Origin: Sacculina carcini
Taxonomy: Eukaryota; Arthropoda; Thecostraca; Sacculinidae
Reading direction: 5' to 3'
Length of the DNA stretch: 64,000 nucleotides
NCBI GenBank assembly: GCA_916048095.2
Contig: OU696587.1
Coordinates: forward strand, 3,566,079-3,630,078
The notes under the pieces were generated by a model. It worked only from the letters and a program-made list of their open reading frames with translations, searched no databases and had not been told where the DNA came from. The first letter of the stretch is position 1, and every line of letters starts with the position of its first letter. The translations under genes and the position numbers were made by a program. Positions 14,764-50,219 of this stretch are shown one piece after another.

Positions 14764-16970
14764 TACAGCACTGAATCAGTGAAAGTGCACATCAAATAGA
14801 AACACGTGCAATTTAGAATTAATAAAATGTAAGAATGTATAATAAGTATAAAAGTATAATAAGTCACAATGCACATACACAAAGCAGGTTAGGAAGGATT
14901 CAATGTGAGAGAAAGAAACAGTTATACTAAACTGAAAACTGCTCTGAAACAAGCACAGCATTTGAAGGTTAAAGGTTAAATGCCTAAGTGGCAGCTGCTA
15001 CACGGGAAGAAGCCGAAGCTTATGAACACACAGGTGTGCCCCGTGCAGCTCGCTGCCACCACAGAACCGACCCTCTCCACGCTATGACGTCACAAGGACG
15101 TAAGACGTATTAGAGAGGGCCACCTCCCCAGAATGCATGGCACAACTCATGACTGATATCTGGTACCATCATTTTCTGCTGGGTGGGCAGGGACTGTGGG
15201 ATGAAATTCTGGGAAGGAATTCGCCCAATGAAATTCTGCTCCGCCGGGATTTGAACCACAGACCTCCCTTTGTGAATGTTTATAAGTAAAACTTATTAAA
15301 TCCATCAGATAATCAAAATTACGGCGTCAAGGAGATTGAGGATTATGAGGTTGATAATTGTAATTGGCCGCCAATGTGACACACTATGGATCAGATCGGT
15401 TCCATGTCAGCAAGGGAGATAGCGGCTGAGACAAGCTGCAGGAGACCCACCTCAAGAAACACGGTCACCCAGAGCATGTTGAAGACGGCATAGAGCGCGT
15501 ACTCATGCGCCGAGTCAACACCGCACACAAACTGAACCAGACCGAGCAACGCAGGACCCAACAGCGCTGTCGTGTAGAAGCCGAGAAACGAGAAATACAT
15601 GGCCACTGACTCGCCGAAATAACTGCGAATGTCATCTGTACACAAACACACAAAAACACACATACACACACACACGTACACACACACAAGCTAAATAATG
15701 GGCAAAAGTGCAGGATAAGAACGTTTCCGTATAAATAGCACAACATACAAACACGACACAAACAATTGTGGTGGATTGAGATCGGCAGCAAGCTACTGTT
15801 GAAATGTGCACTCGGCTCAGCCAGACGACTTGAAAACTGTCAATAACAACAACAACAACAATAGGTCCTGCAGCTGTGGCGTCTACGTCGTGGGACCACC
15901 CTCCAATCGTCGTCAGAACGACGGGGCTGTCAAACTCCTGGGATCGGCTTCGGTCAGCCGGGTTCCACAGGTCTTTTTTCTTTCTTTTTTTCAGCTCAGT
16001 GTAACTGGCACAAATCGTGACACCACGCTACACATACACAAACAACAGACACAGTACCAACACCGCTCGCCTCACACTTTCATTTTCACGCATGCCACCG
16101 TCTCCTGCGGGGGCGTCGAGATATGACCCGCTCGCGATCATTTCTCGTATGCTCATACTCGCAGGAGACGTAGAACCAACTCAGGCCCGAGACACGCATA
16201 CATCTGCCACATATGTACACAGCCACTCACTACACGCCGACACACAAAAGGCTCAGTTCAGTGCAACTCCTGCATGAACTGGTGCCATACCACATGCTCA
16301 TCACTTCACATCACACAATACACGAGGTCATTCATCTGCTCATCATGCGCACCAAACTCATCAACACCTGCACGTACACCGACACTGGCACATTCACCAT
16401 CAACATCAGTCACCTCTGTCTCATCAACATCACCGCGGTCATCAGCACCACCGACATCACCATCATTCCCATCTTCACATGCAACTCGTTCATCATCACA
16501 ATCACCAACAACTTCGTCCTCCTCACAATCATCACCATCATTTCTCCCATTATCACCACACTCATCAACACATTCACCACCACCACCACCTCCATCAACA
16601 ACTCAACAACACTCTCACTCGCACAAACACCAACATACACCGCACACACACATCAACATTCTCCAGCTCAACATCGACGGCATCAACACAAAAAAAACGA
16701 ACTAACACACTTCCTCACGCGACACTCCATTCACATAGCACTCATACAGGAAACAAAGTTACAACAGCACCACAGAACACCCACCTTTCACAATTACACC
16801 ACCATCCGCCAAGACCGCACTAGCGGCCGAGGCGGTGGTCTCATCACACTTATACACAGAACAATCAACTACGCAAACACCAGCACAACCACTACTAAAA
16901 TCACCGATGTTGTTCGGCCAGACAAACTGAGGAACAACAACAAAAACAACAACATTAACAGCAGAACGAT

Positions 16971-17057
<87 letters not shown>

Positions 17058-19912
17058 GTGTGTGTGTGTGTGTGTGTCCGAACCGAACGGTTGTCGCTGA
17101 AACAGGGCGGCGTACCACGACTGTCCCAGTTTGTCCAGTGTCGGCATATCGTGCAGCGGAAACATTTGCACGATCACGCCATGCTGCACCAATAACTGAG
17201 CTGAACATCACAAACACACAAACATAACTTCATGGAGACAAACAATAGTAGCACACATGCCAAATATACAGCATATTATTATTATTATTATTATTAATTA
17301 CAGGTGGAGTAGCGCGAATATTCGTAAAGACTACTTTCCAAATGTGTGGCGAATAGAAAAGTCATATGAACGAAAAAACACAGTTAGGAAAAACGAAGAC
17401 AAAAGCATGGAAGGTCATACATTCACATATACACAACTACAACTGCACAATTATCCACACAGACACAAAAACACACGCGCGCACAGACAAGCACAAGAGC
17501 GTACAGGCGGCCACTCACTGACACTCTGGCCCGGATAGAGACGGATGTCCGGACGACCAGGCACGTGACACTGTCCGGCCGTCGTGGAGGCGGAAGCGCG
17601 CACGTGCAGCAGCTCGTGCCGCACGATACGCTGCTTCTGACAATCACTGAGCAAGTGGTGTCCGTCACCGCGCCCCCCGTCCTCACCCCCACCACTGACA
17701 AACTCGGCCAGTTCTGCACGCACAAACTCGCGAGGTCGTCCGCTGCGTCGCTCCACCAGCTGCAACTGCATCAGCTCGGCCGCCTCCAACAACCGGCCAC
17801 CGCTGGCGCTCACGTGCAACACCACTCCCTGCAAGCAACCGAGCACACACACACATACACAGATATGACATGACATTGAGCCACACACACACACATATAT
17901 CGCGCTTTTCACCCGAAGGTCTTAAAAGCGCTCACACACATATACACACACGGACACAAGCACGAAACACACACATATACATTCACACACACACACACAC
18001 ACACAGTACAGTAATACATTTATATCGCGCTTAACATCAAATGTCTCTAAAGCGCGCGCACACACACGCACGCATATAGACACATACAAAACAAACAGCC
18101 ACAAACACACACAGCCACAAACACACACAATCACATACGCGGACACGGACAAAATGCTAAACACGATACTTTTCTGAAATGATGGCAGAACGATTGTGAC
18201 ATGAGATAGTGTAAGAGATGTTAAGGAAGTATTTTTAGCAGTGTCGTATAAAGAATCAAGAAATTGAATGGAACGAAGGGAAGACGGTTATATATACGAG
18301 GGCCCTGAATAGAAAAGCACCGATCATAATGAGAATGGCGAGGAGGAAATTGAGGCTCAGATAGTAAGAATTTGTTGTCAGATCTAAGATGAACAGAGTT
18401 GAGCGAAACCTTATACGAGAACATGTTGAATATATATTCAGGTTTGTGGAGGATTAAAGCAGAATGGATAAGTTTACAAATACGAAACTCAATCGAAGCT
18501 TTAATAGGAAGCCCACCTAATTTGTGAAGATAAGAGGTAATGTGAGAGCCATATGGATAAAAAAGTGAGCAACAATAGACTACCCTTGATACTACAAGAA
18601 CATTAATTAATTTAGGAGAAGCAGGAACAGCAATAAAGTTACGTATGAAGTAGATACGGCGAATTTGAAAAAAACATTGGTGGTTAATCTCACAAATACA
18701 AGGATCAAATGATAACTTGTCGTCGACAAGTACACCTAAATTAATAACAGTAGCAGAAGGAGAAATGGCAAAAGTAGAAGGTAGAGGGGAGGAATTACAC
18801 ACACACATACGCACGCATACAAACACAAACACATACACACAGACAAACACACGGACACACACACACAGACACACACACACAGACACACACACACAGACAC
18901 ACACACACACACAGACAAACACACACACACTCGCACACGCAGACAAACACACACACACACAAACACACACACACAAAGAGAAACGCACGGACACACACAA
19001 ACACAGACACACACACGCAGACAAACACACACATACACACACACACGCACACACACACACATACACACACACACATACACGCAGACAAACACACTCGCAC
19101 GCACGCACGCACACACACACATACACACACACACACACACTTGTGGTTAAAGGAGTATCTTCGTCATGTGGACCAGTGAAGAGTGGAGTGCCACAAGGGT
19201 CTGTATTGGGACCCATCATATTCTTGGTTCATATGAATGACATGGTTGAAGGGATTAAAAGTTATATTAGTTTGTTCGCTGATGATGTCAAGATACAAAA
19301 CAGGGTTATAAATTGTGATAGTTGCCAGGAACTTTAGAATGATTTAGATATTATATTCAGATGGAGTGTGAAATGGGAGATGTCATTCAATGTCAATAAA
19401 CGCCATGTCATGGAAATAGGTAGAGGCAAAAGATGACCGTCCAGGGTGTATAAATTGGGAAACAAATAATTTAAAAGGGGATCCGAGGGAAAAGATTTGG
19501 GAATTGTTATTGAAGAAACACTTTCGGCTGAGAAACATATAGGCAGGGTTGCTGCAGTAGCCTACGCGTCACTGAAAACACTGAGGTTGGCGTTTTTGGA
19601 TGCCGATATGAAAGTATTTGGAAGTATTTGGAAGTATTTGGATGCCGATATGCTAAGAAAGATAATTGTTTATATTATAAGACCGAAGTTGGAGTATGCA
19701 GACTACTGTGGCAGTAAATTGAAAAAGACGAGGTGTGTTAGCAATGTGAAATTGTTCAGCTTCCCTAGTAGGTGTGTGGACGCATGGAACGGCTTGAGTG
19801 CAAAAATAGTGAATGCAGAGTGTATTGGGAAATTCAAAGAGAGGCTGGATATTGACAAGGAGACAGGACAGCTCGAGCTTAGCTCATTTCCTGTATCTAT
19901 AAATATGTGAGT

Positions 19913-20960: not shown

Positions 20961-23080
20961 ATCCCTGTGTAACAATACTGAAAACTTTAATCTACTAAAA
21001 TTATGCCAGGGTAACAAGAATACGTAGAAATCCCCGATATGCGAGCGTCACTCTTTATAGATAATCAAATAAATGTCATCGTCTTGCGAGTAAAAGCATA
21101 CTGCGAAAAACCGCCTAATTTGTATTAACCACGTCATTTTAGCTATACCAGGAGGATCATATTTTCGGGAGCAGCCATTCCTAATTTTCTTAATAAAACT
21201 GTCTGAATTCCAAATTTCAATAATAAAACAAATACTTTATTTTTGTATGAGGATTTGAAGTCAATTGAGAATATCCGCTAAGGAAGATGAGAATATCCGA
21301 TAGAATATCCGATATCCAATTGAGAATATCCGCTAAGAACAAGTGACACCTAGCAGTGACCACTACACTGATGCACAGACGATGAATATCGGACAACGAT
21401 CCGAAAAACAATAAATCATGCCAAATAATATGAATGCACGAACTCACCTGGTGCACTCATTGAATTAATTCACATTCAGTACGTACAAGTTAAGCACTCC
21501 TTTTTGTCAAAATTGTTTTCCGAAACGAAGCAAGCACACACACACACGCGCGCACACAGACATACACACATACACCAGCCCTTCACCAGCAGAAACAGAC
21601 TAGCTGTCCTCAAGAGGGCAGCAGTGGCCTGTTTGGGAGTCGGCCAGATTTCAGCACACAGCACAGAAATAACTGACAACTGCAGGCTGCCAAAAATATT
21701 CACTCTACTACAATGACTTTATGTGGAAAAATACAAAAACAGCCACTCGTAGAAGCAATCCATTTTTATATGCAACAAAACGACATATACATCTACAAGT
21801 AAATGAAACATAACATTATACAAAACTACATGATGAATAACAGAACATATAATTTGCGTATTCACCAGTAAAAATATATAAACAAATAAAACAAAAAATA
21901 TGAATAAATATGAATAAATGGTAATTGTATTCAATCATCTATCAAGTAAATATTTAATAATAGATATTTATACATAATTTAAGTTTATTATATATATATA
22001 TATATATTTCTGTAATAATAAAAATATAATAATTGTGCTGAATTCCATTAACATACGCGTTTTCAGCGAGCGTTTGCAAAACTCAGCGGTGAGTGGAAGT
22101 GCAAAGGGGCAGACAGAAGCACAGCAAAACGGAGTGTGTAATTAAGTACATCGTCGTGCATGTGCGTGTTCCAGAAGCGTTTTTTTAGTCTGTATGTGTA
22201 GCTTACCAATATTGTATTTATAATTCACATTTATTTCTCTATTAGTGTTTGTTTTCCACTTTCATTGTATACATCATGTCATTCAGTCGAGAGAATGTTC
22301 GAAACATCCCTGCGAGAATGCCACCGTATCATTTCTGCTAATTGTACTTGCAAAATTTTGCAAGAGGGACCACACACACACACTCACATACACAATTGCG
22401 CATATTCGTGTATCGTGTACCTCTGAGAGATCGCTCTAAGAATGGGATGAATACAAACGGTGATATTTGACGCTTGCATTCTGCTGCATTATGTGTGTGT
22501 GTGTGTGTGCGTGTGTGCACGAATGCGTGTTTCTGTGTGCGCAAATCAAAGTAACTATGTTGTTAAACTGTACCACAGAGTGAATAACAATTTAACGTAT
22601 AAGAACGCGCTCATTCGCATTCTCAAATCTGCTGATTCAACAGTTCACAAGGCACTAGCTACAAGATTGTTTGTTTGTTCGTATGCACATTTGTGTGTGC
22701 ATGCACGTTTGTGTGTTTAAGCTATACTCGCGATTTTTGTGTTTATTTGTGAGCGTGTAAATTAAGTCAACACGTGTGCTCTCACAGTAGAACTGTGAAA
22801 CTGAGAACTGTGAAAAGTCCAACTGCTGTCATAAGCGGAATTAGTGAAATTATCCTTGCTGTATACGACTAAGGATTCACAATATCAACGATTCAATATC
22901 AAAGATTATGAACTGTTGACCAGCAATGCTAATTTAGTTTAATTTAGCTTGTGGTGCGACACAACTTCCGTCTAGAGACCACAACAGCTGTGTGTACGCC
23001 TGTTTGTCTGTATGTCTGTGTGTCATGTTTGTCCGTGTCATTTTTTTCACATCTGTATTGTTCATATTACGTAAAAGCTA
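20961..23080. other. Gene-poor AT-rich stretch
   Basis: No coding exon could be supported. There is a short internal repeat at 21266-21335 (three occurrences of AGAATATCCG with CAATTGAGAATATCCGCTAA repeated) and short CA/TG runs at 21538-21565 and 22490-22520. The part next to 23080 is probably the 3' untranslated region of the retrotransposon on the minus strand. Confidence 0.5.
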
Positions 23081-24532
23081 TCACAACAGGACACAGGCAG
23101 CGTTGCCGCGCATGATGGCCAGACTAACTGGCTGAATTAGCCAGGCAGTTTCACGCTTCTCGCCTGTGCGCTCTGTGATCTTTCGACCGATGTGCTTGCA
23201 CAGTGTCTCGCATGCTGGTCCCAGAACACCGCTGGTCTCCACCGCTACTGGTACGAAGTGGTAACGGTCCGTTAGCGATGCGTATCGCTGGCGCTTGCGT
23301 TGTTCTGCTGCTAGGGCTGCTGCGCCGGCGTTGATGGCGCAGTTCAGCGTGTGTGTGGTGCTGAACGTGTTTGAGCAGGTGGCATCCCAGACAAGGCTTT
23401 TGCCGCTCGTGAAAGGGTATACGGTTATCCCGTCCGGGCGGCGTCCGTCTCCCCTGTCCAGGCCTCGTGGTTCCAGCACCGCGCCGATCCCAGCTGCCGC
23501 CAAACCGCGATACACAGTGTCGTTGAGCGCCGTGTGCCTTGGAATTCGTCCCGCGCTTTGTTGACATGTCAACGCATGATGCCCCCATTTGTCCGACATG
23601 GCACCGCATCGGCATCTGTGGGGTTGTTGGACGGGCGAGCCGATACGCAACGCCACGCCTACACGCACCACATCGTCTAGCAGAAGAAGGCCCAGACTGG
23701 CCACCGGAACCGCGTGCAGCCATGCTCCACTGTGTGATGTAGCCGCTGCAAGAATGCGTGCCCGCTCTGTTTGGTTGGCGGTGGACAACAAGTTCTGCTG
23801 CCGCATCTTGGAGGCCTGTCGGGCCAGGTTGCGCTGGGTAATTGTCTCGTCGAAGCTCCAGTTCGGGCACTGCTCTGCGACGTATCTCTCCAAGGCGGCC
23901 ACCAAAGCTCCCGGTCTGTCGACGCTGTCGCGTCCAATGATTCGACTTACCAGGTCTCTGGTGGACTCCAATGAGGCCACAAACGCGGGTAGTGCGACGT
24001 CCGCCATGCGTCGAGAGCCAATCCCACCCAAGCTCACCGGTAGGGAGGCTTGTGTCCAGCTGGAGTCGGTCATGCTGACATTGCAGCTCTGGCATATTGC
24101 TGCTCGCAGAGTGTCATCGATCGATTTCAGCTGGGTGGAGGCCGTATGCACCGGCGCTGCTCGCATAAGGTATGTCGCCCTGGGTACCGATGAGTATCGG
24201 CTCAGAAAAAACAGTGTCACATGGCTTTGCAGGCCAACCGATCTCTCGCGCAGTAGGTTAGTGGCTTCTGCAATTTTGGTCAGTGCGAAATCTATGCCCC
24301 CGTGCATCAGTGGAGCACCGAGCAGGGTCAGCTCGGACAAAGGAATTACCTTAGCTTGACTGAGCGGGTCGCTATCAGCCTGGATCGCTCCGCAGTTGCT
24401 GAGTCTGCATACCTCGCACTTGGCACTGTTAACTTCGAGGCCGATTGACCTCAGCAGGGGCACTATTTTTTTAATGTCGTTTCGGACACTGGTGGCCGGG
24501 CCGCCGAATGTGGCGTCGTCCAGATACCGTAG
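23081..24532 (-). pseudogene. Retrotransposon ORF, C-terminal half after the in-frame TAG: RT palm/thumb + CCHC + RLE endonuclease
   Basis: Continues in the same frame as the upstream half. It begins LRYLDDATFGG (catalytic DD present), then GLEVNSAKCEV, LGAPL, a thumb region, a knuckle C284-x-C286-x8-H295 or H296-C300 (numbered from codon 24463), and the endonuclease core RRPDG with VWDAT about 15 residues later. The region between LGQTKIWSC and YLDD, normally holding GVxQGDPLGPxLF, is absent. So the frame is preserved but the enzyme is not. Confidence 0.8.
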
Positions 24533-26284
24533 CTACGGGCCACGGGATCCACCGCCAATGCGGACGGGATCTATGCATGACCATATCTTGGTTTGTCCAA
24601 GGTACAACGGAGTCGGATGTCCGTATGCTTGGTAAACAAGTTGAACGGCTGCCGGGAACCGGCGGCGCACTTCCTGCAAGACGGCTCGTCTGCTGACAGT
24701 ATTAAAAGCGTTTTGCAGGTCGAGCTTGAAAATTACGTTTTCCGGCGAGTCGATATGCTCCATTGCGTATTCTCTTGTGGCATGCACCGCTGCTTCGCAG
24801 CCCATGGGAGTGGCAACGCCCAGCTGCACTGGACGTAGCAGCGGAGTGACTGACGCTGCCATGCGGGATGCCACCAATTTGCTGGCGAGTCTGCGCAGGA
24901 TGCTGCCGACATCAATTGGCCTGACACCGCCAGACGTTTTCCTCACGGCAATTAGTCTGGCTGTAAAAAACCCACTCCTCGCGAAATCTGGGATGTTGCC
25001 AGCTATAGCGGTGTTGCACAGGGCTGTGAGAGCTGTCAGCAAGTGCTGACCCGCCTCTGCTGTTTTGGGCGACACCAGCTGTCTCAGGTGCATGGGTCTG
25101 ATGCCATCGAGTCCTCCCGATGAGCCCTTAGGCAAGATGTTGATGGCCTGGCGCACCTCGTTCTCATCCACGATCATGGCTGGCGGGACGTCGGAAAGCA
25201 AGTCAGCAGGCAGCTCATCAGCCGTATCGGGGTGTTTTTCTTGTATGATCGCGGCGATGTCTGCGGTTGGTGAAATGACGGTGTCAGAAGAGCTCAGCAA
25301 ACGAAGTGCTCCTCGGATATCGCCGTCGGCACATTTTGTGTTCACGCGACGAGACAGGGCGCTGCATGACGAGGTTGGAGAACGTGTATCAGATCCTCCG
25401 GATCTAGTCATCTGACTTGTCGGTGCTGTTGGTTGATTGCTCATTGTACCGGTGCGGGCGTAGGACAGTAAGTGCCACCAGGCGCGCAAAGATCTCTGGT
25501 CGATGGCTTCCTTGATAAGGTGTGCCAACTCAGAGGTGACTCGGTGTCTTAATCGGCGTGGCACATGTTGGCGCACGGAGGCCTGTCGGCTGAGTGCAGC
25601 CAAGGCGTCAGCAATGTTCGATGGGGTTTCTGGACCCATCTCTTCCGCCGGTCCGTTTATCGCGACTTCATTGGCTTCGGCCTCGAGGCAACCGTGGCAG
25701 CACCATGACTGCAGTGAGTCTGCCTGCCGACACGTCAGTCCAGCACAGCTCAAATGAAACCTTTGCGAGCAAGCAGTGCAGTTGATGCTCCGCTTTCTGC
25801 TGTTGTTCAGAGAGCAGACGCTGCAAGCTGCGGTTTCATCCCTCGCGATGTGAGAAACGCTTCCGGCGGGCTGTTGTTCACGCACCTGGTAGAGCATTCC
25901 GGCTGCGATGCACTTGTCAAGTCGACAGGGGGCACATATTCGTGAACCGTGTGACACGTCGCAGTGTCCGCCGTTCTGACACGTCCTGGACGAACGATCG
26001 TCGCTGTGATGTCGCCCGAAAAAGGCTTGACATGCTCGGCAAACTACAGCCCCGAATCGAAGGTGGGTCTGTCCATGCAAGTCGCAAACAACGCACGAAA
26101 TCATGACAGAAGTGTTTATGCCGGTGTGTACGCCATATACTCGTCGCACGGTATGGCCGTCTTCGCAGTTATTGATCGTGACAGCTTTCGCTGCCAGGGG
26201 TATAAAAACACAAGGTCGGTCGCAGGCAGGTCGCAGAAGACGCGGTACAGCACAACCTTCCTCGACGACGGTAGAACAAGACAA
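24533..26284 (-). CDS. Retrotransposon ORF, N-terminal half: nuclear-receptor-like C4 finger + PHD + RT
   Basis: 583 residues. C4 domain at residues 64-130: C64-x2-C67, C82-x2-C85 within CRACQAFF, C102-x5-C108, C117-x2-C120, then RLDKCIAAGM, the RxxKCxxxGM end typical of nuclear receptors. The first finger spacing is 14 rather than the usual 13, the second 8 rather than 9. PHD finger at 154-199: C154-x2-C157, C169-x2-C172, H177-x2-C180, W194-x-C196-x2-C199. RT starts at about 375 and carries the first catalytic aspartate in KLDLQNAFN (D522). No ligand-binding domain follows the C4 domain. The frame ends at TAG after GGGSRGP, where the GDPLGP-type RT motif should be. The RT is intact up to this point. 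Confidence 0.88.
   Translation of the reverse strand: MSCSTVVEEGCAVPRLLRPACDRPCVFIPLAAKAVTINNCEDGHTVRRVYGVHTGINTSVMISCVVCDLHGQTHLRFGAVVCRACQAFFGRHHSDDRSSRTCQNGGHCDVSHGSRICAPCRLDKCIAAGMLYQVREQQPAGSVSHIARDETAACSVCSLNNSRKRSINCTACSQRFHLSCAGLTCRQADSLQSWCCHGCLEAEANEVAINGPAEEMGPETPSNIADALAALSRQASVRQHVPRRLRHRVTSELAHLIKEAIDQRSLRAWWHLLSYARTGTMSNQPTAPTSQMTRSGGSDTRSPTSSCSALSRRVNTKCADGDIRGALRLLSSSDTVISPTADIAAIIQEKHPDTADELPADLLSDVPPAMIVDENEVRQAINILPKGSSGGLDGIRPMHLRQLVSPKTAEAGQHLLTALTALCNTAIAGNIPDFARSGFFTARLIAVRKTSGGVRPIDVGSILRRLASKLVASRMAASVTPLLRPVQLGVATPMGCEAAVHATREYAMEHIDSPENVIFKLDLQNAFNTVSRRAVLQEVRRRFPAAVQLVYQAYGHPTPLYLGQTKIWSCIDPVRIGGGSRGP
25688..25825 (-). other. PHD finger inside the retrotransposon ORF
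   Basis: C4HC3 pattern with the conserved Trp two residues before the last Cys pair (WCCHGC). PHD fingers usually read histone H3 tails; here a chromatin-targeting role is inferred only from the fold. Confidence 0.75.
25895..26095 (-). other. Nuclear-receptor-type C4 zinc finger domain inside the retrotransposon ORF
   Basis: Eight metal-binding cysteines in the two-module nuclear receptor order, with GAVVCRACQAFFGR (compare the P-box position CRACxAFF of divergent nematode-type receptors) and a closing CRLDKCIAAGM. Inferred role: sequence-specific DNA recognition for target choice or for transcription of the element. Confidence 0.85.
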
Positions 26285-27125
26285 AAATATGAAAAATTGA
26301 CTCGAAATTATTCGTTTCGCGAGTCGCTAATCAGAAGAAAGCACGTTTTTTCACCTAACTGAATTTTATCATAATTGCAACTCAGAATCGTCGGAAATTC
26401 AACAATTCTAACGGAAAGTAGCACAATTTTGCACGCACCTACAGCTTCAGTGGTGGCATCACGATTGCAGCAGTCAATCATGCTATGACGAGCACACTCA
26501 TTGAAGCAAACATCAGCAAAAATATTCTAGAAAACTATCAAAATTACCCTGTTTACCCAAATTACCTAATTCCGTGTCATTGTGTATGTGTTGTAGGAGC
26601 ATGTGTGCGTTAACTTGTTTGTACGTGTGTCTGATCGTGCTGTCCTGTTATGTCTGTATTTTTAAATACAGTCGGTCCAAAGCACTCACGTTATCAACTT
26701 GTGTTCGTCCGTCACAAGCTCCTGGTTTGTGATAGCCGCTTACCGTTGATTCTCGACTAAATATAAGTTTAAATTTTATGTTTTTTTTTCACACATACAT
26801 GTTTATTGCCCAATATCAGACACAGAACGCATAAAACACTTTTATAACGCAACGCATGTATTTAACGCACGCAACACAGAACGCATAAGCGCATACAACA
26901 TTTTCATAATAATTATTTATTATTATATATAAATATATATTATATAATTTAATTATAATTTATGTTTATTTTTTATAACAATAATCCCTTCAAGATGGTG
27001 AAGAATTAACGAGACACACGTAGTGCGGATCTACCAGTGATAATAACCCCACGAAGCTAGTTTAAATATAATCTCCCCACGCGGTATATCACTTATGACC
27101 ATCAAAAGAAGCACATGTAAATCGA
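26285..27125. other. Intergenic region between the retrotransposon and IST1; no gene seen
   Basis: AT-rich. A partly repeated motif (AACGCATAA, AACGCAACGCA, AACGCACGCAACACAGAACGC) lies at 26825-26895. A TATATAAATATATATTATAT stretch is near 26925. No exons recognised. Confidence 0.4.
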
Positions 27126-27272: not shown

Positions 27273-28208
27273 TCATTTACGATTTTTCAAGGCTTCAAAC
27301 CTTTTGGCGAGGTCGTCAAAATTCACCTCGTCTTTGGTCGACACTGTGGACGGCGGCGCGGTCGAGGGGACTGACGGAACGTCAGGCAGGTTGAGCGCGT
27401 CAAGCGGCACGTTGACGGCAGGCGCGTTGTAACTGGCGGCCGGCGGTGACGGTGCGACCGGCATCGCAGGAGCGAACGGCGCGGGAGCAGATGATGTAGA
27501 AGCAACTGGCGGACACACAGAACCCGGCTGCACGAAACCGATGGGTGGACCCAGCACTGGTGGAGCCGTGGATCCACCTCCACCGCCGGAAAAACCACCC
27601 GCGCCACTCAGGTCGTTGAAATTGATGAGATAATTGTCGGGTCCCAATTCTCCACACATTACACTGGGATCGGGCTCGTAAGGCACGCCGTAATTCTTCG
27701 CAATTTCGGCCATATACTTCTCAACGAGCATCTTGGGCGGCGCTTGTACGCTGAGTTTGTTGATCAACGTCTGCGAGACAGTCTCCAGACTGTTTTCTCT
27801 GCACGAGAGAACATACTCCTTGCCATACTTGCGGCCGAGTTGAACTGATATTTCGCGTAGTTCCGCAACGTCAGCTTCCAATCGCGGAGCCACCCACAGA
27901 ACGCTTGATATTGGCTCTGCAAGACCTTCGTCTAATGTCTTCATTTGTTTTATTAGCCCCATGCGAGCTAGCAATAGGTCGCAAAAACATTCCACTATTT
28001 CCATGGCTTCAACAAGGTAATCCTCACGAATGATGTGTTCCACTCTTATTCTGGCGCGTTCTAACTTATTCACTGATATGTAATCCGCAATTTCTTTGCG
28101 AGCTTTCAATGCTAACTCAGACTTTTTCTTCTCCAATAACTTCAGCCTATTCAAGGCCAGCCTCATGTTGGTTTTCAACTTGTTATAGTCAGGCTGTGAA
28201 CTAAACAT
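27273..28208 (-). CDS. IST1: IST1 homologue (ESCRT-III-associated), single exon
   Basis: 311 residues, uninterrupted. The N-terminal helical Ist1 domain is highly conserved: ALNRLKLLEKKKSELALKAR, KEIADYISVNKLERARIRVE, HIIREDYLVEAMEIVECFCD, LLLARMG. Then come APPKMLVEKYMAEIAKNYGV and PYEPD, a Gly/Pro/Ala/Ser-rich linker, and a C-terminal MIT-interacting motif DDLAKRFEALKNRK. Known: IST1 binds CHMP1 and VPS4 and regulates ESCRT-III disassembly in cytokinesis and endosomal sorting. The start ATG at 28206-28208 is the first in frame and fits the family length. Candidate AATAAA on the minus strand at 27133-27138. Absence of introns contrasts with the neighbours; it may be a retrocopy that is still functional or genuine intron loss. 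Confidence 0.96.
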   Translation of the reverse strand: MFSSQPDYNKLKTNMRLALNRLKLLEKKKSELALKARKEIADYISVNKLERARIRVEHIIREDYLVEAMEIVECFCDLLLARMGLIKQMKTLDEGLAEPISSVLWVAPRLEADVAELREISVQLGRKYGKEYVLSCRENSLETVSQTLINKLSVQAPPKMLVEKYMAEIAKNYGVPYEPDPSVMCGELGPDNYLINFNDLSGAGGFSGGGGGSTAPPVLGPPIGFVQPGSVCPPVASTSSAPAPFAPAMPVAPSPPAASYNAPAVNVPLDALNLPDVPSVPSTAPPSTVSTKDEVNFDDLAKRFEALKNRK

Positions 28209-28995
28209 GACAAATAGATAAAGTAATAATTCAACTAAACTTGGGCTTAACTCACCCTAAACTCACCACAGATGAAAATAAACGTTAAAAACAGATACCA
28301 CTGCCTACCGATGAATCACTCCTTACGTAGATTCGAAAATATATAGCGTAGCAGAGTACGTAGCGTTGAGCTGCGTCAGATTCGTGCGCTTGTTCAGAAT
28401 TTAATTTATAGTTCCTGTGCTAGTTAGTGGAGAAATGAGCATTGTCCTGAATTCATCGGTCCCAATCAAACTTTGATGTGCGTGGTGCGTGTACAGACTC
28501 AAACGGATGCGTTGATGAAATAACCCGAGCCAGGATTGGCACCACGAATCTCTGACACGGGAGTTCAGTGCCTCAACCAGAGCTGCTCGGGGCTGAGTAT
28601 GTAGTTGGTAGTATTTCAGATTGTGTTATTATCTGTAGTTTTTGGTGCTGCTATATTTTATTTGATGTGTTTTCATGCTCTCGTGCTGTAATCATGAGTG
28701 CTAGACGATTATTTGTGGAATGACCGGTCATTTACTATTGTAAACATGTGAGAGTCTCCGCTGCATTCTCCTGTACGTGTGCCGATTCTACGGAGTAAGG
28801 CGATTGAACGGATGTGTGTTCGGTGCGACATATGTGTTCTGTTTCATAGCGCAAGGAACGGCGGAAAAATATTGTACTGGTATGTCAGATTTGTTCGCGA
28901 GAGTAGCGAAGTACTCAATGAGTAGTTAGCACAGAAATAGCAGTAGAGGTACAGCAAGTTTGATCACACAGATAAGTTGGTAGCACTTCGACACC
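28209..28995. promoter_or_regulatory. Shared intergenic region between divergent IST1 and FRA10AC1
   Basis: 787 bases between two start codons pointing away from each other, interrupted by a SINE (28470-28600). No TATA box near either start is convincing. A bidirectional promoter is inferred from geometry only. Confidence 0.4.
28470..28600 (-). mobile_element. Degraded tRNA-derived SINE
   Basis: The minus strand reads GCACTGAACTCCCGTGTCAG then AGATTCGTGGTGCCAATCC, followed by TGGCTCGGGTTATTTCATCAACGCATCC. This parallels the fuller copy at 20770-20960 (TGAACTCTCGTGTCAAGGG, GTTCATCAACACCTCC). Confidence 0.65.
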
Positions 28996-29877
28996 ATGAC
29001 ATCGGAATTTGACTCGGCATTCGAAGGCGACAGCGAAGCGGAACGCAAAAAGAGACGGAGAAAGGACTTGGCCGTCCCTACTTGCAGTTCTGCTTCTGCG
29101 AGCAGACCTGCGCCCGAGATCAGACCGTCGCGATCCACATTGTTTGACACTGCCCATCGTCAGACTGTCGGCGGCGTGTATCGTTTCCACGATCTCTCGC
29201 TGAGCGCCTATGATCGTCACAGGCTGCTGGTGAACAATTACCTGCTGAGTCGGCCAGGAGCGCGTCTCCCCCAGCGCGACACGAGTAACGACCGCACCGA
29301 TCTCGATTTGATTCGCGAAAATCACAAGTTTGTTTGGAATGCCACCGACGAGCAGGATACGTGGGAGAAGAAGCTGGCGAAACGCTACTATGACAAGCTT
29401 TTCAAGGAGTATTGTCTCTGCGACCTGACCTATTACAAATTGAACAAAGTCGCTCTACGTTGGAGGGTTGAGAAAGAAGTGATTTCCGGTAAAGGTCAGT
29501 TTGAATGCGGAAACAAGAAGTGCACTGAAAAAGAAAAGTTGCGCTCGTGGGAAGTGAACTTTGCCTACACAGAAGGGAGCGAACGTAAAAATTGTCTGGT
29601 GAAATTGCGGCTGTGTCCCGGGTGTTCTCGAAAACTCAACTATCGCCATCGAAGAAAGGAAGTGACAAAATCGAAGAAACGCAAGCGTGAAAGGAGCAAA
29701 AGTAACTCGCCTCAACCAAGCGTGGCTGCGGACACCGATACCGTCTGCACTCAGCCGAAAGAAAATCCAAGGAAAGAGTCCATCGAAGAGAACATATGGA
29801 AACAACCTGTGCAAACGACCACTGAAAAAAGTATTGATGAACAGTTTGACGACTTTTTGTCCGACTTGTTCGTTTAA
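28996..29877 (+). CDS. FRA10AC1: FRA10AC1 homologue, single exon
   Basis: 293 residues. Conserved core: DLDLIRENHKFVW, WEKKLAKRYYDKLFKEYCLC, DLTYYKLNKVALRWRVEKEV, ISGKGQFECGNKKC, LRSWEVNFAYTEG, CLVKLRLCPGCSRKLNYRHR. The four cysteines (CGNKKC and CPGC) look like a small zinc-binding site. The N-terminus is acidic/basic low complexity (FEGDSEAERKKRRRKD) and the tail is Lys/Ser-rich with an acidic end FDDFLSDLFV. Known: a conserved nuclear protein recovered with spliceosomes; its molecular role is poorly understood. The ATG at 28996 is the first in frame and is preceded by ACACC. Candidate poly(A) signal AATAAA at 30336-30341. Confidence 0.95.
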   Translation: MTSEFDSAFEGDSEAERKKRRRKDLAVPTCSSASASRPAPEIRPSRSTLFDTAHRQTVGGVYRFHDLSLSAYDRHRLLVNNYLLSRPGARLPQRDTSNDRTDLDLIRENHKFVWNATDEQDTWEKKLAKRYYDKLFKEYCLCDLTYYKLNKVALRWRVEKEVISGKGQFECGNKKCTEKEKLRSWEVNFAYTEGSERKNCLVKLRLCPGCSRKLNYRHRRKEVTKSKKRKRERSKSNSPQPSVAADTDTVCTQPKENPRKESIEENIWKQPVQTTTEKSIDEQFDDFLSDLFV

Positions 29878-48937: not shown

Positions 48938-50130
48938 TGCATCTGGTGGTCGCTTATAGGCGCAGTGATCGCTAGTGAACGAGAAACAGGCAGATGCGAC
49001 TGTATTCCGCCTCTTCGCGATAGCAAAGCCCAACGGAACGGCTCGTATTTTATACGACCTCTCTCCGCTGACCGACCAATTGGCACACTACACCATCAAG
49101 TTGCCTCGCCCCACGGTGTGTCTACAACACCTGGCGGCTCACCCACAATGGAAAATGGTGAAATTCGACCTGAGGCACGGATTTTTTCAACTCCCTCTGC
49201 ACAAAGGCCTCTCAGCTTTACTCAATGTTTCGTACCGCGGACAAATCTACCAATGGACCCGGCTACCTATGGGACTCGCCTCAGCGCCCGCTCTGATGCA
49301 AACCGTGACATCGGCCATTGCACAAGCACTACAAGACCAGCTGAACATTCACTGCGTCGCCTACCTGGATGATTTCTTGGCGGTGGGACCACCACGTCAA
49401 CTGTGCAAAATTCGGCCGCTACTTGATCATTGGCAAGTACAAATCAATCATGCGAAAAGCTGTTGGAAGCCCACCACAACGATCGACTTTTTGGGGTTTC
49501 GCATCTGTCAAGGATCGACAACCAGCATCGACATCAACCCGGTGACGAAAAGACAGCTCATGCAAGCATGTGCTCTGGCGCCACAACGACCCTACGTGTG
49601 GCGTCGACGCTTGGCGGGGTACATATCGTTCTTGTGCCGCACTATGCGTCTGCCAACAACGTACGCAGCACTAGCATTATACCAACCAACACGGCTCGCG
49701 AGCGCAGCTCCGATGCTCGAAAACTTACAACCAGTCACGCCTGCGCCTCCAGTCGACTGTATTATCGCCACTGACGCCTCGCAACATGCATTAGGCTTGG
49801 CCACACCACATCAGCAATGGACGCGTCTTCACCACGACAGCCCGCATATATACGACGCGGAACAGCGTGCAGCCCTCTGGGGCTTAGCCGCAGCCTTTCT
49901 CAGCGGATATCAGATGCCGTTATTACTCACCGATAACGTTGCAGTACTCTATAATTTGAGCCGGCGACGAGTCAGTCCCGCGCTACTACCGATACTCAAC
50001 CGTTTCGCCTTTCAGCGGCCATTTCGCATGGCTTACGTCCCGACCGCTTGGAACCCGGCTGACGCCCCGTCACGATGCATCTGGTGGTCGCTTATAGGCG
50101 CAGTGATCGCTAGTGAACGAGAAACAGGCA
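48938..50130 (+). mobile_element. Retroelement RT-RNase H fragment flanked by 55-bp exact direct repeats
   Basis: The open frame (48975-50150) has no ATG near its start. It shows an RT with AKPNGTARILYDLSPL, KFDLRHGFFQLPLHKG, RLPMGLASAP and AYLDDFLAVG, then an RNase H region with IIATDASQHALGLA, YDAEQRAALWGLAAAF, LLTDNVAVL and NPADAPSR. Identical 55-base direct repeats lie at 48938-48992 and 50076-50130 (start TGCATCTGGTGGTCGCTTAT, end CGAGAAACAGGCA). At the right the repeat is part of the coding frame, at the left it is out of frame. The family is unclear: YLDD plus NPADxPSR fits retroid elements of DIRS-like or pararetrovirus-like type. There is no integrase or gag. Confidence 0.8.
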
Positions 50131-50219
50131 CAACACTCCAAACAGCCTGACAAACTACGCCGTACAATACAATGCGTGCCACGCGTTACGTAACACACAA
50201 ACACTTCCGTTCACTAACT

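Follow-up and report, generated by a model that had tools for sequence, protein, structure and literature searches.

The minus strand of a 64,000-nucleotide stretch of Sacculina carcini DNA (contig OU696587.1, positions 3,566,079 to 3,630,078; this whole stretch is termed the window) carries a broken copy of a non-long-terminal-repeat (non-LTR) retrotransposon, in which a nuclear-receptor-type zinc domain (C4) and a PHD finger precede a reverse transcriptase (RT), a zinc knuckle and a restriction-like endonuclease (RLE). The identity of the two N-terminal domains, and their fusion to an RLE long interspersed nuclear element (LINE), are close to certain. The explanation that best covers the findings as a whole, which was given a probability of roughly 0.6, is that the window holds a decayed copy of a recently active C4-PHD-RT-zinc knuckle-RLE family, that its C4 domain was captured once, and that the family would insert by target-primed reverse transcription (TPRT) into (CA)n.(TG)n microsatellites, with the C4-PHD pair holding the target DNA.

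The fused domains and their relatives

The open reading frame (ORF) at 24536-26326 on the minus strand was analyzed by Pfam scan. A preliminary description of this DNA had proposed a nuclear-receptor-type C4 domain, and zf-C4 indeed matched residues 77-144 with E = 4.3e-9 and 37.2 bits, against a cut-off of 21.1. The best solved structures found by sequence alone were nuclear-receptor DNA-binding domains (DBDs), those of the androgen receptor (8e-7) and the vitamin D receptor (9e-7), and the predicted fold likewise placed the domain among the nuclear-receptor DBDs. The C4HC3 PHD finger of the same description was also borne out: in this copy it scored 20.1 bits (E = 6.4e-4, residues 168-213), below the cut-off of 24, though its zinc ligands were invariant across 11 aligned copies and relatives, as were the eight C4 cysteines. 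The F..R of the first C4 helix and the CRL..C motif were invariant in the 11 aligned sequences too. A chance pattern of cysteines was ruled out by the zf-C4 match (E = 4e-9) taken with the invariant ligands. The PHD part of the predicted model matched the BPTF PHD finger in complexes with H3K4me2/3, and the ORF also gave a partial match to RVT_1 (29.4 bits against a cut-off of 29.6).

Relatives were sought among 5.8 billion protein sequences, and scoring was confined to the 7994 candidates with the most words in common with the query. Fourteen were found, and only P0001 (1023 amino acids, source label ena) had the C4 domain, PHD finger and RT, in the same order as here. The PHD finger exceeded the Pfam cut-off in P0001, P0003 and P0004 and fell below it in P0002, P0007 and the window copy; the C4 domain was absent from P0003 and P0004. 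Neither domain was present in P0005, P0009 and P0011 on rescanning, and the precomputed domain lists of the remaining six relatives name neither. No Pfam match to a ligand-binding domain was obtained in the window ORFs or in P0001; this protein is therefore not a nuclear receptor but carries only the DBD of one.

In an RT tree restricted to the relatives found here, the C4-bearing elements clustered, with P0002 next to them. The nearest relatives of P0001 have a PHD finger without C4, which suggests one capture of C4 into a PHD-bearing R2-group LINE. The trees fit such a capture of a receptor-type host domain by an RLE LINE, as the preliminary description had supposed, and a single capture at the N terminus of a PHD-bearing element is probable on these sequence comparisons, tempered by the moderate ultrafast bootstrap value (UFBoot 83) of the C4-bearing group. 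The source was most likely an animal nuclear receptor. The DBDs of steroid receptors, ROR and HNF4 scored alike against the C4 domain, and the trees singled out no source receptor family. A protein search with residues 1-150 of P0001 returned only P0001 itself among 54 candidates, and a scan of viral contigs with P0001 gave no match.

Judged by its sequence and by comparison with the relatives found here, not with reference elements of named clades, the element is an R2-group RLE non-LTR retrotransposon. RVT_1 matched P0001 at 7e-18, and R2 proteins were the best matches in the PDB, with E = 8e-9 for P0001 and 1.6e-24 for a six-protein profile. The predicted C-terminal half matched only R2 structures at E<=0.001 (7/7), and the zinc knuckle and PD-(D/E)XK endonuclease motifs were conserved, as in RLE (R2-group) LINEs. 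Most 3' ends read had A-runs, a few copies (e.g. L074 and L086) being without one, and 5'-truncated copies were present. What speaks against the assignment is the low confidence of the C-terminal-half model (pLDDT, the predicted local distance difference test, 61.5), in which the RLE has the helix and strand order alpha-beta3-alpha-beta, and the score of the RLE stretch alone, which reached only -1.7 bits by sequence against R2.

The family and its insertion sites

The S. carcini genome (264 Mb, 43 contigs) was scanned with the window protein; 73 matches were scored out of 1007 candidates; all copy numbers given are minima. The match began at or before query residue 78 in 70 of the 73 and at or before residue 85 in 71, the C4 domain being residues 77-144. 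Frames of at least 1000 amino acids without a stop were found for 42/73; two of these start inside C4, and three that exceed 1200 amino acids may be lengthened by N runs or repeats. The open copies had no stop or splice boundary between C4 and RT. The earlier proposal that C4, PHD, RT and endonuclease lie in one frame stands for the open copies of the family, while in the window copy itself the shared frame is interrupted by a stop at 24533-24535. The idea of a chimera, whereby a LINE landed next to an exon of a host nuclear receptor and the ORF arose by chance at a single locus, can be dismissed, since the fusion recurs in 70/73 of the matches scored, which are spread over many contigs, and in P0001, which comes from another source.

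Subfamilies were named A to E in this analysis: A (that of the window copy), B (with a branch B2), C, D (D1 and D2) and E all share the C4-PHD-RT arrangement, so that the domain order first described for one copy recurs in five subfamilies and in P0001. Subfamily E was exposed by a zf-C4 search of the genome, which gave 147 matches, host receptors and element copies together. Five full-length E copies (L040-L044) gave C4 scores of 67.6-68.5 bits and have the same PHD finger and RT behind the domain; E is the subfamily closest to canonical receptors. A search unbiased towards C4 was made with P0011, an RLE LINE protein that lacks the domain, and yielded 47 matches, representing 46 copies, from 1774 first-look candidates. 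The whole C4 domain was present in 38 of these copies (36 via the window-protein search, one via the zf-C4 search and one in a further analysis), two started inside it and six were 5'-truncated beyond it. No C4-less lineage was seen among the 46, and no copy with a full-length 5' end lacked C4; the domain is a regular part of the family and not a neighboring exon.

The D1 copies are young, with a mean identity of 98.5% over 91 pairs of 14 copies and a best value of 99.97%. Judging from such copies, this is a multi-copy, recently active family. The two D1 copies at G000:C31:5950814-5961263, 99.97% alike, lie in tandem within one long CA array.

The flanks of individual copies were then compared, with 5' junctions set by hand for the 5'-side counts. 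In the full-length D1 copies read, the element adjoins a CA-rich array at its start or is separated from it by no more than a few bases, and CA follows again after most A-tails. On the sense strand, a (CA) run of at least 10 bp was present within 150 bp of the 5' junction in 23/28 copies and a (TG) run in 0/28; by subfamily, CA was found in 15/15 D1, 3/3 C, 3/4 B and 2/6 A copies. For control, pieces drawn at random from the window or from host receptor loci (the latter without E copies) gave 13-16% and 5-11%. Within 200 bp of the 3' end, CA runs were found in 24/32 copies (D1 12/14, D2 5/5, C 3/3, B 2/4, A 2/6) and TG runs in two, both of which also had CA runs; the controls here gave 14-17% and 7-12%. 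Subfamily E had CA in 3/5 copies on the 5' side and 4/4 on the 3' side. Left out were L006 (second piece of the L009 copy) and L011 (N) from the 5'-side count of L001-L030, L090 (N) from the 3'-side count, and the damaged E copies L040, L053, L055 and L056 from the E flank counts; L105 (not an E 3' end) and L102 (which breaks off in coding sequence) are not among the four E 3' ends, and for D2 the reading covered just the 3' side. An automatic mapping of 5' ends by blastn (CA 16/28, TG 0/28) was dropped, as CA repeats align with one another and shift the junction outwards.

The two flanks of one copy shared 341 8-mers other than pure CA, compared with 165 +/- 23 when permuted (27 copies, L018 being omitted; 0/10,000), and several 5'-truncated copies (L017-L019, L003, L096, L097 and L099) had CA on the 5' side. 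The arrays were therefore present before the element inserted, given that flank pairs share array variants and truncated copies abut CA arrays. These same two observations count against the alternative that the element made the arrays, as carried or seeded tails, instead of choosing them as targets; although A-tails do pass straight into CA repeats, this alternative is very improbable.

Taken together, the flanks indicate with high confidence that the family targets (CA)n.(TG)n microsatellites and enters them in a single orientation; the pattern stands out in subfamilies C, D and E and is weaker in B and A. The preliminary description had called for a test for a shared target motif, and this is the motif found; the suggestion of hormone-response-like targets did not survive, as most copies lie in (CA)n microsatellites. 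Hormone-response elements were rejected as targets because CA arrays make up most of the flanks; receptor half-sites as such were not scanned for.

Several observations weaken the case for this target. The pattern is poor in subfamily A (2/6 on either side), and the flanks of the window copy hold CA runs of only 6 bp and none longer. The receptor-loci control for the 3' side included some E copies. Not all copies are independent, since L023 and L024 share one array and the E copies L042 and L043 have near-identical flanks.

Further observations were made at the junctions. The A copy L004 sits in a CACAAA array instead. Behind L064 and L074 the CA arrays continue for far more than 500 bases; long targets are thus available in the genome. 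The E copy L102 (contig C20) ends abruptly within the coding region of the RLE and gives way directly to a CA array, which looks like array-array recombination. The first bases after the CA array are partly common to the distant D1 copy L020 and E copy L043 (GTC...CCTTC..CG..GAAGG), a possible 5' signal. A simple 5' hairpin folded no more stably than shuffled sequence, and, there being also no Rfam match to one in nine loci, an HDV-like 5' ribozyme was rejected.

Layout of the window copy

The window copy is encoded on the minus strand, and its outer ends were inferred from a 10-bp direct repeat on both sides. The features are as follows.

23042..26570, minus strand: whole subfamily A element copy, about 3.5 kb, broken; 94-98% alignment to sister copies L002-L005 between 26551 and 23116
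26571..26580, minus strand: candidate 10-bp target-site duplication, 5' side; the same 10-mer lies at 23032-23041 (inferred)
26105..26570, minus strand: 5' leader; its last part, from 26326 on, is open in frame upstream of the Met
26102..26104, minus strand: likely start codon, a Met directly before C4; a Met shortly before C4 is also found in the other subfamilies examined and in P0001
25895..26098, minus strand: C4 domain of nuclear-receptor DBD type (Pfam zf-C4)
25688..25825, minus strand: C4HC3 PHD finger; 20.1 bits here (below cut-off), 26.4 bits in P0001 (above); invariant ligands
24536..25336, minus strand: N-terminal extension and RT up to and into the damaged block (RVT_1, motif positions, R2 proteins as the relatives' best PDB match)
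24529..24573, minus strand: damaged RT block with small deletions relative to sister copies and an in-frame stop at 24533-24535
23619..24532, minus strand: remaining RT, with the YLDD motif at its start, and R2-type linker; at E<=0.001 the predicted structure of this half has R2 proteins as its only matches
23564..23614, minus strand: CCHC-type zinc knuckle before the endonuclease (C-x-C-x8-H-x4-C, conserved)
23219..23551, minus strand: PD-(D/E)XK RLE (RH..EP..RPD-x-D..E-x2-K motifs; R2 structures only)
23042..23080, minus strand: short 3' untranslated region ending in an A-run
23032..23041, minus strand: candidate 10-bp target-site duplication, 3' side

The ORF at 24533-26326 holds the C4 domain, the PHD finger and the first part of the RT. 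A second ORF (23081-24532) follows directly after the stop in the same frame and holds the YLDD motif, linker, zinc knuckle and RLE motifs. Alignment to sister copies gave the blocks 26551-24574, 24565-24531 and 24528-23116 with small gaps between them, the window copy being a net 48 bp shorter than L003. The copy is thus broken in the RT, where small deletions create the in-frame stop. Translation most likely begins with the Met at 26102-26104; C4 would then begin at residue 4, and the 74 upstream residues of the ORF would be read-through of the 5' leader. In B, B2, C, D1 and P0001, too, C4 is preceded at a distance of a few residues by a Met, and in E the distance is about 20.

The element adjoins IST1, lying behind that gene. 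IST1 (27273-28256, minus strand) and FRA10AC1 (28984-29877, plus strand) form long uninterrupted frames beside the element; among the named matches of IST1, barnacle proteins came first (55-57% identity), and behind them proteins of other arthropods, Priapulus and vertebrates in mixed order, which points to a probable crustacean host. A search of the assembly for COX1 gave no match. Elsewhere in the window, positions 48969-50150 (plus strand) hold the RT ORF of a different retroelement (RVT_1 6e-17, DNA_pol_viral_C just below cut-off), and positions 16174-17100 (plus strand) a weak Exo_endo_phos match below cut-off, possibly the remnant of a LINE with an apurinic endonuclease-type (APE-type) enzyme.

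The role of the C4 domain and comparison with known systems

In the mechanism proposed, the C4 domain would stem from a single capture, with an animal nuclear receptor as the most likely donor, and would have been added at the N terminus of a PHD-bearing element. Insertion into (CA)n.(TG)n would proceed by TPRT, the CA strand being the element's sense strand; as in R2, the RLE would nick the TG strand and the A-tail of the RNA would be copied from there. The C4-PHD pair most likely fills the role of the C2H2 and Myb modules of R2 and holds the target DNA, and the PHD finger may contact marked nucleosomes. Whether C4 contacts DNA at the insertion site was judged evenly balanced. A stronger version, in which a nuclear-receptor DBD was re-tooled to read DNA and pick out (CA)n.(TG)n repeats, paired with PHD as histone reader, is doubtful, and it is unlikely that C4 by itself sets the CA specificity.

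The constraint on C4 was explored in five close pairs of copies and one divergent, unsaturated pair (L008/L016), one further pair being saturated. Three lines of evidence stand against a targeting role for the domain. The P-box region of C4 varies from one subfamily to another (CPSCRE, CRACQA, CRACLV, CRACSV, CPACRQ and CRACDV) while the target is shared, and canonical base reading of one target by C4 is therefore doubtful. Within subfamilies C4 lacked clear constraint, nonsynonymous divergence (dN) being at least equal to synonymous divergence (dS) in 2/5 close pairs, with few changes. Finally, other RLE elements have microsatellite targets, so CA targeting need not derive from C4: Togen elements are (TG)n-specific (PMC4640811), and DongAg and DongBg insert in microsatellites (PMC3636483), the text available on either group making no mention of C4.

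These lines also favor the alternative that C4 is simply carried along, or that its ligand is a partner protein or the RNA of the element, with RT, linker and RLE, together with pairing of the A-tail to the nicked strand, setting the (CA)n target. The domain has in addition evolved faster than the RT, with 42% amino-acid identity in L008/L016 compared with 67%. This alternative is a serious possibility, though less probable than the preferred explanation. It sits poorly, however, with the invariance of the eight cysteines, the first-helix F..R and CRL..C, with dN lying below dS (0.55 against 1.96) in L008/L016, the sole unsaturated divergent pair, and with the presence of C4 in every P0011-query copy that has a full-length 5' end.

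A further alternative is that the PHD finger does the tethering, through a histone mark over microsatellite chromatin, and that C4 adds general DNA affinity. The wider retention of PHD among relatives and its match to the BPTF complexes would fit, and PHD-guided targeting has been suggested for other LINEs in the portion of PMC4120745 available. Nevertheless, a histone mark alone would not yield a single orientation at CA arrays (23 to 0 and 24 to 2), and this reading is distinctly improbable. Under the stronger and doubtful version, in which C4 itself picks the (CA)n.(TG)n target, a transcription-factor targeting module would have been turned into an integration-site selector.

A nuclear-receptor DBD in a LINE is apparently undescribed within the literature searched: no published RLE LINE with such a domain was found there (subscription papers, preprints and Repbase lying outside the search), and none of the papers listed combined a PHD finger with a restriction-like endonuclease. 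Its uptake into an RLE LINE would mean that R2-type elements can exchange their targeting module at the N terminus for an animal transcription-factor domain. The family also offers a natural experiment: several subfamilies differ in the P-box, copies have been active recently, and a single target, (CA)n, can be read off. Work to develop R2-group proteins for gene insertion is reported, and a natural swap of targeting module therefore bears on the evolution of target choice.

Among known systems, retrotransposons with captured DNA methyltransferases share the capture of a host nuclear regulatory domain, but on the available text of PMC5890265 the domain, element class and host are all different. 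PHD fingers in LINE proteins are known from CR1/L2 elements; these belong to the Jockey superfamily, carry PHD mostly in ORF1, and neither C4 nor RLE is mentioned in the text available (PMC4120745). The NeSL/Utopia/Togen and HERO groups are likewise RLE LINEs, some with loose or microsatellite targets. For Utopia, the accessible part of PMC4640811 reports extra domains in the form of one to three zinc fingers, an Ulp1 protease or RNase H, and no nuclear-receptor domain. Nuclear-receptor DBDs (GR, AR, VDR and HNF4) have the same two-module C4 fold, CxxCxxF helix and closing CRLxKCxxxGM, whereas the C4 domain of the element has an altered P-box, sits inside a retrotransposon protein and has no ligand-binding domain found with it. 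The closest system is R2 (R2Bm and R2Tg; PDB 8gh6, 9dou and 9nl3), the best match in both sequence and fold, which has the same single ORF with N-terminal zinc module, RT, linker, CCHC knuckle and RLE. R2, however, uses cysteine-histidine zinc fingers and Myb at a 28S rDNA target, whereas the present element has a nuclear-receptor C4 domain and a PHD finger and is found at (CA)n arrays.
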